Part shown: positions 11,306-33,338 of the stretch, piece by piece
Numbering within the stretch: the stretch's first letter is position 1
Layout of the letters: every line of letters begins with the position of its first letter
Translations under genes and position numbers: made by a program
Notes under the pieces: model-generated
Seen by the model: the letters and a program-made list of their open reading frames with translations, nothing else
What the model was told of the DNA's origin: nothing
Database searches by the model: none
Source: Meiothermus sp.
GTDB lineage: Bacteria; Deinococcota; Deinococci; Deinococcales; Thermaceae
Length of the DNA: 61,113 nt
Assembly: GCF_025060375.1 (NCBI RefSeq)
Contig: NZ_JANXCG010000027.1
Span: 1 to 61,113, forward strand
Direction: 5' to 3'

Positions 11306-12973
11306 ATGGGGCTTTTCATGGCGATTCTAGCCTATCTGGTGGGCGCCTTGCCTCTAGGGTACTGGGCGGTGCGCCGTTTGAGCGGATGGGACCCCCGCTG
11401 GGCCTCGAGCTACAACCTGGGTCTGGAGAACGCGCTCCAACGCCTGGGGATTGGTCCTGCGCTGTTGGCTTTTGTCCTGGATGCGCTCAAAGGTTTGTTG
11501 GCAGTTTGGTTGGGGGGGAGGCTGGGGTTCTCCTGGGGAGTGGTCTTTGCCCTTTTGGTCTATCTAGGCCACCTCTATCCCCTGCGACCTTTTTCCCAAG
11601 GAGCGCCGCTGCGGGGGCGGGGAGCAGGGGTGTTGTTGGGGACGATTCTTGGGCTCCACCTGAGCGGTCTGCCCTACCCCCATACGTTGGCGCTTCTGTT
11701 GCTGGGGGCGCTCACCCTGCTGACCCGCTATGTTTCACTGGCGGTCTTGGCTCTGCCTCTAGGCCTTGCATTTCTCACCACGTTTTTGCCCATGGAGCCA
11801 TGGGCCAGGCTCGCTGCTTGGGGCCTTTTTGCTGTGGCCCTGTGGCGCCACAAGGAGAACATTGCTCGGATGCTAGAGGGCATCGAGCCCCGCTTGGGTG
11901 AGCCTCCCCCCCTTCCTTCGGAGAAGCAGGTGGTCTGCGCCTTCATGATTCATCCCCTCACCTTGGAAGACCTCTTCCAAAGCCCCCGTTTTCGCTGGGC
12001 CAGGCCTTTGATTGAGCGGGGCATCCTTTCGCGTGCTTGGGTAGAGCGCCTTGCGGAGTTTTTCCGACCAATGAAGGTAGGGGAGCTGCGCGGGGTGAGG
12101 ACCGCGGACGGTCGGGAGATTCGCTGCTATCTAATTTCCGCCCCGCTTTTGCCCCACCAGATTACCGGTAAGCCCGATCTCGCCACCCTGCGGGCCATTC
12201 AAGGGGCCCGGTTGGCACGGGAGCTGGGCTGTACGGTGGTGGGGCTGGGGGCTTTCTGGAGCGTGGTGGGCGAGAAGGGCCGGTTGGTGCAGGAGGCGGT
12301 GCCCGAGATAGAGGTGACCAACGGTGGAGCCTACACCGCTGGCACCGTCAAGGCGGCCATCCCCGGCATTCTGGCCCACTTCGAGCAGACTGGACGAAGG
12401 TTGGGGGAGGCCACCGCTGCTGTGGTGGGGGCCAATGGGGTGGTGGCCTTTGGCATCGCCCGCCAGATAGCGCCCTTGGTGGGCAAGCTAATCCTGGTGG
12501 GGCGGAACCTCGAGCGCCTGGAGAAGAGCGCCGCAAGCCTCAGGCAGAATCTGGAGCGCAAAGGGCAGCCTGTGCCCAAGATCGTGACCACCTTGGATAT
12601 AGCCGCCATCCGCGAGGCCGACCTGGTTTTCAGCGCCACCTCCGACCCCCGGCCGGTCATCTTCCCCGAGCACGTGAAGCCCGGGGCCTGGATTTACGAT
12701 GAGGGCGTACCACCCGATGTGGACGAGTCGGTCAAGGGGCTGCCGGGGGTGCGGGTGATCCCGGGCGGGGTGGTGCGGCCTCCGGGCAACATGACCGGCA
12801 ACCTTGATCTGCACTTTGGCGAAGGGGCCGTACCGGCCTGTCTGGCTGAGACCATGATTCTGGCCGCTGAAGGGGCCTACGAGCGCAAGAGCCTGGGGGG
12901 TGAGACCAAGAGCGAGAACATCCAGTTCTTCGTGGATCGGGCCGAGGCCTTGGGGTTTCGGGTGGTGGACTAG
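11306..12973 (+). CDS. Fusion of PlsY-like acyltransferase and acyl-ACP-reductase-like protein
   Basis: 555 residues in two parts. Residues 1-195 are a membrane domain laid out like PlsY (glycerol-3-phosphate acyltransferase) with recognisable but altered motifs: 'VGALPLGYWAV', 'SSYNLGLENALQRLG' where PlsY has its GNPGATN motif, 'DALKGLLAV', and 'GHLYPLRPF..GAPLRGRGAG' where PlsY has FKGGKG. Residues about 215-555 resemble cyanobacterial long-chain acyl-ACP reductase: 'AVVGANGVVAFG' (nucleotide site), 'LILVGRNLERL', a GGVV motif, and 'ACLAETMILAAEG', whose cysteine (about 512) aligns with catalytic Cys294 of Synechococcus AAR. Inference: it reduces an acyl thioester to aldehyde next to an acyl-transfer site in the membrane. 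The product is unknown. Confidence 0.8.
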   Translation: MGLFMAILAYLVGALPLGYWAVRRLSGWDPRWASSYNLGLENALQRLGIGPALLAFVLDALKGLLAVWLGGRLGFSWGVVFALLVYLGHLYPLRPFSQGAPLRGRGAGVLLGTILGLHLSGLPYPHTLALLLLGALTLLTRYVSLAVLALPLGLAFLTTFLPMEPWARLAAWGLFAVALWRHKENIARMLEGIEPRLGEPPPLPSEKQVVCAFMIHPLTLEDLFQSPRFRWARPLIERGILSRAWVERLAEFFRPMKVGELRGVRTADGREIRCYLISAPLLPHQITGKPDLATLRAIQGARLARELGCTVVGLGAFWSVVGEKGRLVQEAVPEIEVTNGGAYTAGTVKAAIPGILAHFEQTGRRLGEATAAVVGANGVVAFGIARQIAPLVGKLILVGRNLERLEKSAASLRQNLERKGQPVPKIVTTLDIAAIREADLVFSATSDPRPVIFPEHVKPGAWIYDEGVPPDVDESVKGLPGVRVIPGGVVRPPGNMTGNLDLHFGEGAVPACLAETMILAAEGAYERKSLGGETKSENIQFFVDRAEALGFRVVD

Positions 12974-24317: not shown

Positions 24318-25310
24318 ATGAAGCCAATCGCCCTGGACGCCATGGGGGGGGACCATGCCCCCAAAGCGATCGTAGAAGGTGCCCTGGTGGCCCAAAAACA
24401 GGGGATTCCGGTGGTGCTGGTGGGTCCCACCGAGGTGCTCCAGCAGGAGTTGGAGGCCCAGGGGGGGCATCTGCCGGTGGTAGAAGCGCCGGAGCACATC
24501 ACCATGCGGGACCACGCTACCGACGTGCGCAAGAAGCGCCGAGCCTCCATCAACATCTGCATGGAGCTGCTTAGACAGGGTGAGGTCTCGGCGGTGGTGG
24601 CCATGGGACATACCGGGGCTACCCTGGCCTCGGCCCTGTTCAACCTAGGGCGAGTTCCTGGGGTGGACCGCCCGACCTTGCTCATCGAGCTGCCCAGCGA
24701 GAGGGGCCGCACCTATCTGGCCGATGGAGGTGCCAACGTAGACTGCAAGCCCGAGTGGCTGGTGCAGTTTGCGGTCATGGCCACCGCCTATGCCAAGGCC
24801 CAGGGGGTGGAGAACCCCAGCGTGGGCCTGCTCTCCATTGGGGAGGAGGAGGAGAAGGGCAACGACCTGATCCTGCGCACCTTTCCCCTTCTGAAGAGCG
24901 CTGCTGGGCTCAACTTCTACGGCAACGTGGAGGGACGGGACATCTTCAGGGGCACCACCGATATCGTGGTCACCGACGGCTACACCGGTAATGTGGTGCT
25001 CAAACTCTCCGAAGGCGAGGCCCGCGTTCTCTTTGGCTGGATCCGCCAAGCCCTGGCTGAAGGCCCTTGGCCGACCCGGCTGGGTGCCTGGCTGGTGCGC
25101 CCTGCTTTGCAGCGGCTGCGGGCGCGGATGGACCCAGCAGAGTACGGGGCAATGCCCCTTTTGGGGGTGGAAGGTGCGGTTTTCATCGGACATGGTTCCG
25201 CCGACGGGCGGGCGGTTTTGAGCGCGTTGCGCAAGGCCAGGGCAAGTGTCCAGGCGGGCTTGGTGGAACGGGTGCGCGAGGGCATTGCCCGACTGGAAGG
25301 GGTACGCTGA
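24318..25310 (+). CDS. plsX: Phosphate acyltransferase PlsX
   Basis: 330 residues. It begins 'IALDAMGGDHAP', the PlsX hallmark, and includes 'GHTGATLASALFNLGR' and 'VTDGYTGNVVLK'. It turns acyl-ACP into acyl phosphate, the substrate of PlsY-type acyltransferases; the window also encodes a PlsY-like fusion at 11306. The usual fabH/fabD neighbours are absent here; instead a MscS channel gene follows 30 bases later. Confidence 0.96.
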   Translation: MKPIALDAMGGDHAPKAIVEGALVAQKQGIPVVLVGPTEVLQQELEAQGGHLPVVEAPEHITMRDHATDVRKKRRASINICMELLRQGEVSAVVAMGHTGATLASALFNLGRVPGVDRPTLLIELPSERGRTYLADGGANVDCKPEWLVQFAVMATAYAKAQGVENPSVGLLSIGEEEEKGNDLILRTFPLLKSAAGLNFYGNVEGRDIFRGTTDIVVTDGYTGNVVLKLSEGEARVLFGWIRQALAEGPWPTRLGAWLVRPALQRLRARMDPAEYGAMPLLGVEGAVFIGHGSADGRAVLSALRKARASVQAGLVERVREGIARLEGVR

Positions 25311-32009: not shown

Positions 32010-32036
32010 CAGGGCTAGGTCTACTTGGAGGAAGCC

Positions 32037-33338
32037 ATGACCCAAGCCCCATCCAAAAACCAAGCCCTTATGGAGCGCCGGCACAAGGTTGTCCCCCGCG
32101 GAGTCTCTCAGGTGCACCCGATTGCGGTGGCCCGGGCCCAGGGGGGCAAGGTCTGGGACGTGGACGGCAAGGAGTACCTGGACTGGTTCGGCGGCATAGG
32201 GGTTCAGAACGTGGGCCACAACCACCCCAAGGTGGTGGCGGCGGTAGAGAGGCAGCTGCAGCTCTACATGCACACCTGCTTCCCCGCAGTGGCCTATGAA
32301 CCTTACGTGGAGCTGGCCGAGCGGCTGTGCGCCACCGCTCCCATACCGGGGGATAAGAAAGCCTTCTTCCTGAATACGGGGGTAGAGGCTACCGAGAACG
32401 CCATAAAAATTGCTCGAGCCTACACCAACCGCCCAGGGGTGATTGCCTTCCGGGGGAGCTTCCATGGGCGCACCCTTCTGGGTATGACCCTCACCGGCAA
32501 GGCTAACCCCTACCGGCAAAACTTCGGCCCCTTCGCTCCGGAGGTCTACCACGCTCCCTACCCCGATGAGTACCGGGGAATTGACACTCGGAAGGCCCTC
32601 GATGGGCTCCAAGAGGTGTTTGAGACCCAGATTCAGCCTGAGCGGGTGGCGGCCATCATCATTGAGCCCCAGCTTGGCGAGGGGGGGTTTGTCCCGGCGC
32701 CCAAGCCCTTTCTTAAGGCCCTCCGGAGCCTTACCCAGAAGCACGGGATTGTTTTCATTGACGACGAGGTGCAGACCGGCATTGGCCGCACCGGCAAGTT
32801 CTGGGCCATTGAGCATGCCGGGGTGGAACCCGACCTGATCTGCTTTGCCAAGAGCATCGGGGGTGGCCTGCCCATCGGGGGGGTCCTTGGCCGGGCCGAG
32901 ATTATGGATGCGCCCAGCCTTGGGGGTCTTGGCAGCACCTTCGGGGGCAATCCCCTGGCCTGTGCAGCGGCCCTGGCGGTGCTGGAGGTGTTTGAGCAGG
33001 AAAACCTGCTGGAAAAGGCCCAGAAGCTGGGGGAGATGCTGCACCAGGGCTTTCGGAGGATTCAGGCCCGCTTTCCCCAGGTGGTGGGCGATGTGCGGGG
33101 CCTAGGGCCCATGATTGCCATGGAGCTGGTCAAGGACCCCGCCTCCAAAAGCCCCAATCCCCAGCTGACCCACCGCTTGCTGGAGGTGGCCCGTGAAAGG
33201 GGTTTGTTGTTGTTCAAGGCGGGGATGCACGCCAACGTGATTCGCTGCTTGGTGCCTTTGGTGGTGAGCGAGGAGGAGGTGGAAAAGGGGCTGGAGATTC
33301 TGGAGGCGAGCCTCGAGCAAGCCCTGAGCGCCGAATAG
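32037..33338 (+). CDS. gabT: Class III aminotransferase, 4-aminobutyrate aminotransferase-like
   Basis: 433 residues of the PLP fold type I. 'NTGVEATENAIKIAR' (about 107), 'GSFHGRTLLGMTL' (about 138), 'FIDDEVQTGIGRTG' (about 240) and the lysine in 'FAKSIGGGLPIGG' (about 273) are in place. It moves the amino group of 4-aminobutyrate or a similar omega-amino acid to 2-oxoglutarate. Ornithine or acetylornithine as substrate cannot be excluded. ATG chosen behind GGAGG; a TTG 12 bases earlier overlaps that site. No succinate semialdehyde dehydrogenase is next to it. Confidence 0.87.
   Translation: MTQAPSKNQALMERRHKVVPRGVSQVHPIAVARAQGGKVWDVDGKEYLDWFGGIGVQNVGHNHPKVVAAVERQLQLYMHTCFPAVAYEPYVELAERLCATAPIPGDKKAFFLNTGVEATENAIKIARAYTNRPGVIAFRGSFHGRTLLGMTLTGKANPYRQNFGPFAPEVYHAPYPDEYRGIDTRKALDGLQEVFETQIQPERVAAIIIEPQLGEGGFVPAPKPFLKALRSLTQKHGIVFIDDEVQTGIGRTGKFWAIEHAGVEPDLICFAKSIGGGLPIGGVLGRAEIMDAPSLGGLGSTFGGNPLACAAALAVLEVFEQENLLEKAQKLGEMLHQGFRRIQARFPQVVGDVRGLGPMIAMELVKDPASKSPNPQLTHRLLEVARERGLLLFKAGMHANVIRCLVPLVVSEEEVEKGLEILEASLEQALSAE

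Follow-up and report, generated by a model that had tools for sequence, protein, structure and literature searches.

A single open reading frame of Meiothermus sp. joins a membrane acyltransferase-like domain to a putative thioester reductase, which raises the question of what such a protein would make at the membrane. The gene lies in the window, that is, the whole 61,113-nucleotide stretch of DNA that was analysed. The initial annotation described a PlsY-type domain with altered motifs fused to a domain like cyanobacterial acyl-ACP reductase (AAR), and suggested that the resulting aldehyde could enter the synthesis of the long-chain 1,2-diols that replace glycerol in part of the glycolipids. 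Our best explanation as a whole, held with moderate confidence, is a different one: the fusion probably makes fatty aldehyde for the alkylamine tail of the signature phosphoglycolipid of the phylum.

Domain organization and predicted structure of the fusion

The gene and its two domains are located as follows.

11306..12973, + strand: PlsY-like/thioester-reductase fusion, 555 aa plus stop (Pfam, PDB search, AlphaFold2 and Foldseek)
11306..11905, + strand: PlsY-type membrane domain, residues 1-200 (Pfam PF02660 at residues 8-189; Foldseek 5xj8)
11921..12970, + strand: AAR/PigE/TamH-type thioester reductase domain, residues 206-555 (profile, PDB, Foldseek and homologue searches)

Pfam found G3P_acyltransf at residues 8-189 (E 3.6e-30; PF02660, 105.7 bits against a cut-off of 24.1) and Shikimate_DH, a Rossmann dehydrogenase domain, at residues 364-485 (E 9.5e-8). 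A class III aminotransferase domain was absent from the protein by Pfam, and the best candidate for that enzyme is encoded on another contig. A PDB sequence search matched the N-terminal half to PlsY 5xj5 (E 4e-15, residues 2-199) and the C-terminal half to Synechococcus AAR 6jzu (E 2e-14, residues 255-532). The AlphaFold2 model, computed from a 57-sequence alignment, reached a pLDDT of 91.4 and a pTM of 0.87. Foldseek with this model returned AAR 6jzu at the top (E 5e-19, TM by target 0.76) and also PlsY 5xj8 (E 2e-7, TM by target 0.79). These results bear out the joining of a PlsY-type domain to an AAR-like reductase in one reading frame. Structure prediction and alignment to AAR and PlsY, run as a check, recovered both folds and placed Cys512 of the fusion on Cys294 of AAR.

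Catalytic residues and family of the reductase half

Two elements of the reductase half were mapped.

12428..12454, + strand: dinucleotide loop GANGVVAFG, residues 375-383, aligned to AAR GATGDIG; G375, G378 and G383 invariant
12839..12841, + strand: Cys512 codon in VPACLAET, equivalent to AAR Cys294; invariant in fusions

In the 6jzu alignment ACLAET lies over ACFAEA, with Cys512 on the catalytic Cys294, and GANGVVAFG lies over GATGDIG. Cys512 is invariant in the fusion family (70 of 70 members), in agreement with the invariant list of a second alignment; across 70 distinct fusions, little or no variation is seen in the GANG..G loop and in PACLAET. The cysteine is also kept in 16 of 17 standalone homologues and in 7/7 aminotransferase fusions, both described below. 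The assignments of the ACLAET cysteine to Cys294 and of an intact nucleotide loop, first made from the sequence of this one protein, are upheld by the alignment and by this conservation. The arginines that hold the NADPH phosphate in AAR, R189 and R193 (PMC7089970), align with R400 and R404 of the fusion, which are found in 28 and 31 of 31 sequences, respectively.

The proposed likeness to cyanobacterial AAR stands for the fold and the cysteine, but PigE is the nearer family (95 bits versus 55 bits for AAR). The PigE model (NF053554) covers residues 258-551 with 94.8 bits, far below the cut-off of that model; the AAR model TIGR04058 gives 55.5 bits, far below its family cut-off of 449.7. The fusion shares with AAR (6jzu; TIGR04058) the fold, the Cys294 equivalent, the dinucleotide loop and R189/R193, but identity is about 25%, AAR Tyr247 is replaced by Val468 in the PDB-search alignment, and the deformylating-oxygenase partner of AAR has no counterpart shown for the fusion. 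PigE of prodigiosin MAP biosynthesis (PMC8341465), the best-scoring characterised reductase relative, has the conserved cysteine; it turns a thioester into an aldehyde, which it then transaminates. Unlike the fusion, it belongs to secondary metabolism, has no membrane domain, and carries its reductase at the N-terminus and an aminotransferase at the C-terminus, the reverse of the domain order in TamH. PtTamH of tambjamine biosynthesis (PMC9594044) shares the AAR-type thioester reductase, a GxxGxxG loop and the catalytic cysteine, and its reductase makes a fatty aldehyde for transamination. PtTamH lacks a PlsY domain and carries its aminotransferase in the same chain, whereas the Meiothermus candidate aminotransferase is a separate gene. 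Fold, Cys512 and PigE/TamH kinship support, as a prediction, the fatty-aldehyde chemistry anticipated for the fused membrane protein.

The PlsY-like half and a possible source of the acyl group

Three sites were mapped in the PlsY-like half.

11426..11428, + strand: Glu41 codon, in place of aaPlsY Thr41; E in 67/70 fusions
11570..11572, + strand: His89 codon, equivalent to aaPlsY His92 of the phosphate hole; 69/69, and invariant in the second alignment
11612..11623, + strand: R103-G-R105-G106 loop, equivalent to the GGKG phosphate-hole loop; R103 and G106 invariant

In aaPlsY, His92 and the loop 104-107 hold the acyl-phosphate and Thr41 contacts its carbonyl, while Ser35, Arg45, Lys104, Asn180, Ser142 and His177 form the glycerol-3-phosphate (G3P) pocket (PMC5700162). 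The fusions retain the histidine (His89, 69/69) and the loop of the acyl-phosphate hole, the latter as R103-G/A-R/K105-G106 with R103 and G106 invariant; K62-G63 is kept, and Thr41 is swapped for Glu in 67 of 70. The G3P pocket as a set is not preserved in the family. Ser35 is replaced by Ala, Pro or Val in most of the 70 fusions, most have Tyr, Phe or His at the His177 position (chiefly Tyr or Phe), and Asn180 is present in 46. The Lys104 position is Arg or Lys across the fusions; that of Arg45 is Arg or Lys in most, and Gln in the window protein. Compared with PlsY (5xj5), the membrane fold, His92, the GKG-type loop and the Lys-Gly motif are shared, but the fusion has Glu41, a new invariant Arg103 and an insertion before the loop, and Ser35 and His177 are lost in most members; the score against the PlsY equivalog model TIGR00023 (82.6 bits) is below the cut-off of 137.2. 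The key PlsY motifs are altered, as had been noticed, and the suggested non-glycerol acceptor is supported: a largely retained acyl-phosphate site together with a changed G3P pocket fits such an acceptor. We infer from these residues that the PlsY-like half may still bind acyl phosphate. Its most likely role is that of a membrane anchor that also works on an acyl or alkyl chain, either by delivering an acyl group or by linking the chain to a non-glycerol acceptor.

The acyl-phosphate synthase PlsX is a possible donor-side partner of the fusion. Its presence in the window, as annotated, was confirmed, and it is the only copy in the genome.

24318..25310, + strand: PlsX, phosphate acyltransferase making acyl-phosphate

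A cytochrome P450 gene (23074-24300, + strand) lies directly upstream of plsX. The largely retained hole (His89, R103-G-R105-G106, K62-G63), the degraded G3P pocket and the single-copy PlsX would agree with a mechanism in which the PlsY-like half passes the acyl group of PlsX-made acyl-phosphate to Cys512, so that the aldehyde would not come from acyl-ACP. Such a reductase could work within the alkylamine route or for another aldehyde product. We know of no PlsY that acylates a thiol. AAR and TamH draw acyl groups straight from thioesters (PMC7089970; PMC9594044), and we consider the acyl-phosphate-fed mechanism quite unlikely.

The Meiothermus genome encodes four PlsY-type proteins. A separate true PlsY, looked for as a check, was found on contig C28 with the canonical PlsY motif set. 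Two more PlsY-type paralogues with altered motifs are located on contigs C62 and C13 (GSGNIGARN; DTPGASG with GGGGIAP). Thermus has a PlsY paralogue no more than about 7 kb away from the PigE-like aminotransferase.

The neighbours of 48 fusion loci were clustered. No conserved lipid operon was found among them; mqnB, prmA/rsmE and similar genes were found instead. Gene neighbourhood was therefore dropped as pathway evidence, and the lack of a conserved lipid operon at these loci is counted against the alkylamine proposal.

Distribution of the fusion and of the candidate lipids

All 111 Deinococcota genomes match the fusion protein, and 107 of the matches take in the reductase half; the 107 include a few contig-end fragments, and none of the 111 genomes was recognised as genus Deinococcus. 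The other four (G072, G076, G077 and G100) have separate PlsY matches only, and three of them are at most 77% complete. G100, of family f5, is 96% complete and lacks the reductase half. By ribosomal protein L2, families f2 and f3 are nearer to D. radiodurans than to T. thermophilus; both carry the fusion, which is therefore present on both sides of the phylum. The genomes with the fusion include those of Oceanithermus profundus (G011) and Truepera radiovictrix (G108). A search of a plasmid collection gave ordinary PlsY matches only and no fusion. In a quick tree of the reductase half, with long branches, the fusions form one clade apart from their Bacillota relatives. Nested within the Deinococcota clade are two fusions from Bacillota (L019 and L118), which suggests transfer out of Deinococcota. 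Fusions are carried by the Bacillota-type genomes G111 (L147) and G239 (L148/L118), and G111 also has the standalone form of the reductase.

One lipid is known across the phylum. The acidic glycolipid of T. thermophilus is N-(((GlcNAc)acyl2Gro)P-2)GroA)alkylamine with an iso-heptadecyl chain, and D. radiodurans has the same scaffold (PMC3398001). The N-glyceroyl alkylamine phosphoglycolipid has been called an unambiguous lineage marker, its first structure being cited as of 1985 (PMC3035268). The enzymes forming its third hydrophobic chain and polar head were stated to be unidentified in 2022 (PMC9636437). In O. profundus, a phospholipid with alkylamine-type Rf and staining was reported, and glycolipid was not detected (PMC3111992).

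This distribution bears on the 1,2-diol pathway suggested in the initial annotation. Worked out in full, that pathway would turn an aldehyde or 2-hydroxyaldehyde into the long-chain diol that stands in for glycerol in some of the glycolipids, with acylation of a diol phosphate by the PlsY-like half. Diols are known from Thermus and Meiothermus and are probable in Truepera (PMC3035268; PMC3072082), and all three bear the fusion; the polar lipids of T. radiovictrix had not been compared (PMC3072082). The 2-hydroxy iso-17:0 of M. ruber is a possible precursor (PMC3035268), and the PlsY-like half has an altered acceptor pocket in which most basic residues remain. However, diols make up only small amounts in M. 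ruber (PMC3035268) and are not known in Deinococcus, the fusion is present in O. profundus, where glycolipid went undetected, and the closest relatives of the reductase pair with aminotransferases, not with alcohol dehydrogenases. The diol pathway is unsupported as the best reading, given the PigE/TamH kinship, the Bacillota aminotransferase fusions and a phylum-wide alkylamine lipid; we judge it rather unlikely, with some weight left to it by the presence of diols in several genera that carry the fusion.

Bacillota homologues and aminotransferase-reductase fusions

Standalone homologues of residues 211-553 are common in 149 Bacillota genomes (31-41% identity, about 360-407 aa). They are full-length homologues of the reductase half, but they lack the PlsY domain and have another neighbourhood. 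One of them scores 239 bits against PigE and 133 bits against AAR. The standalone gene is found in a conserved cluster (L132-L151, e.g., L134:7890-10510), in the order coaX, dusB, a gene for an HTH protein, one for an uncharacterised protein, the reductase gene, greA and lysS (names by sequence reading). The uncharacterised protein, of about 300 aa, has no Pfam or NCBIfam match.

Bacillota also have long ORFs that match the reductase (about 880-1050 aa). All eight that were read start with a class III aminotransferase followed by the reductase, and PF00202 was confirmed in two of them. TamH, which converts acyl-ACP to fatty amines, has the same domain architecture (PMC9594044). The Bacillota TamH-like fusions (L152-L159, e.g., L159:1676-4327 and L154:4907-7738) come from several genomes and lie mostly outside recognisable secondary-metabolite clusters.

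The standalone reductases beside greA and lysS have no known amine product and count against the alkylamine proposal. Their abundance in a conserved non-lipid cluster, together with an aminotransferase partner that is not conserved in three of five families (see below), would agree with another use of the aldehyde in Deinococcota. It could go to a fatty alcohol or some other, unknown lipid, or serve a housekeeping function that the standalone enzymes also have, and the PlsY-like half would be an anchor only. The Bacillota aminotransferase-reductase fusions argue against this, as do the invariant active-site residues of the PlsY-like half, which exceed the needs of an anchor. We regard another product as unlikely.

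A candidate partner aminotransferase

When the Meiothermus genome was searched with a Bacillota aminotransferase-reductase, the reductase in the window was recovered together with an aminotransferase on contig C83 (282 bits; next 201). Against 8/8 Bacillota fusions, the C83 aminotransferase scores higher than any of the other three class III enzymes that the genome encodes. Class III aminotransferases are similar to one another, and the assignment of C83 as partner is therefore a best match only. It scores 429 bits against the PigE model and 452 bits against putrescine aminotransferase. Its locus is adjoined by a 4HBT-type thioesterase, glmM and RNase R (names by sequence reading); neighbours were called here with a codon-position filter, as antisense ORFs outcompete real genes in GC-rich genomes. 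A GabT-like aminotransferase in the window (32025-33338) was considered as a partner and rejected; its best fit is 4-aminobutyrate transaminase, and it came second to C83 against 8/8 fusions.

Orthologues of C83 are 71-100% identical across near-complete Thermaceae and Marinithermaceae genomes (families f1 and f4), with one exception. In families f2, f3 and f5, three of the five, no C83 orthologue was found, which is counted against the alkylamine proposal. The two Bacillota with the PlsY-reductase fusion were compared for co-transfer of the aminotransferase; one gave a 49% match and the other matches of only 42-45%. In M. granaticius (G028:C7:18047-27182, L109) the aminotransferase and the fusion share a strand and are separated by about 6 kb, which may be chance.

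A proposed route to the alkylamine tail

The reductase nearer to PigE, the Bacillota fusions, the C83 match and the alkylamine lipid of the phylum together led us to propose that the fusion provides the aldehyde for the alkylamine tail. At the membrane-anchored enzyme, Cys512 of the reductase half would accept the long-chain acyl group of a thioester, acyl-ACP being the most likely one, and reduction with NADPH would then yield a fatty aldehyde. A separate class III aminotransferase of the PigE/putrescine type (C83 in Thermaceae and Marinithermaceae) would convert the aldehyde to a long-chain alkylamine, which would become the amide-linked third chain of the N-glyceroyl alkylamine phosphoglycolipid. 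Fold, conserved catalytic residues, phylum-wide conservation and reductase-aminotransferase fusions elsewhere are computational observations, from which we infer what the substrate is, that an aminotransferase acts next and which lipid results. The predicted aldehyde step draws on fold, residues and homology, the putative transamination on the analogy of domain fusion in other bacteria, and the presumed lipid product on chemistry and distribution. Counted against the proposal is that the aldehyde step gives no account of the PlsY-like half.

One possible account is that the PlsY-like half is an amide-forming acyltransferase. The alkylamine would occupy what was once the acyl groove, its amine next to Glu41, and would be N-acylated by an activated D-glycerate held at the phosphate hole and Arg103. 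The glyceroyl donor could be, e.g., 1,3-bisphosphoglycerate, itself an acyl phosphate. We think this a long shot. If it were true, one protein would both open and complete glyceroyl-alkylamine synthesis, and it would be the first PlsY-type N-acyltransferase.

To our knowledge, the PlsY family consists of glycerol-3-phosphate acyltransferases only. Recruitment of the PlsY fold with the acyl-phosphate site largely kept and the glycerol-phosphate pocket lost would extend the family. With one conserved gene and one named aminotransferase, the alkylamine route is directly testable in the genetically tractable T. thermophilus, and among candidates for the enzyme that begins the fatty-amine tail of the signature lipid, the fusion is the strongest so far.
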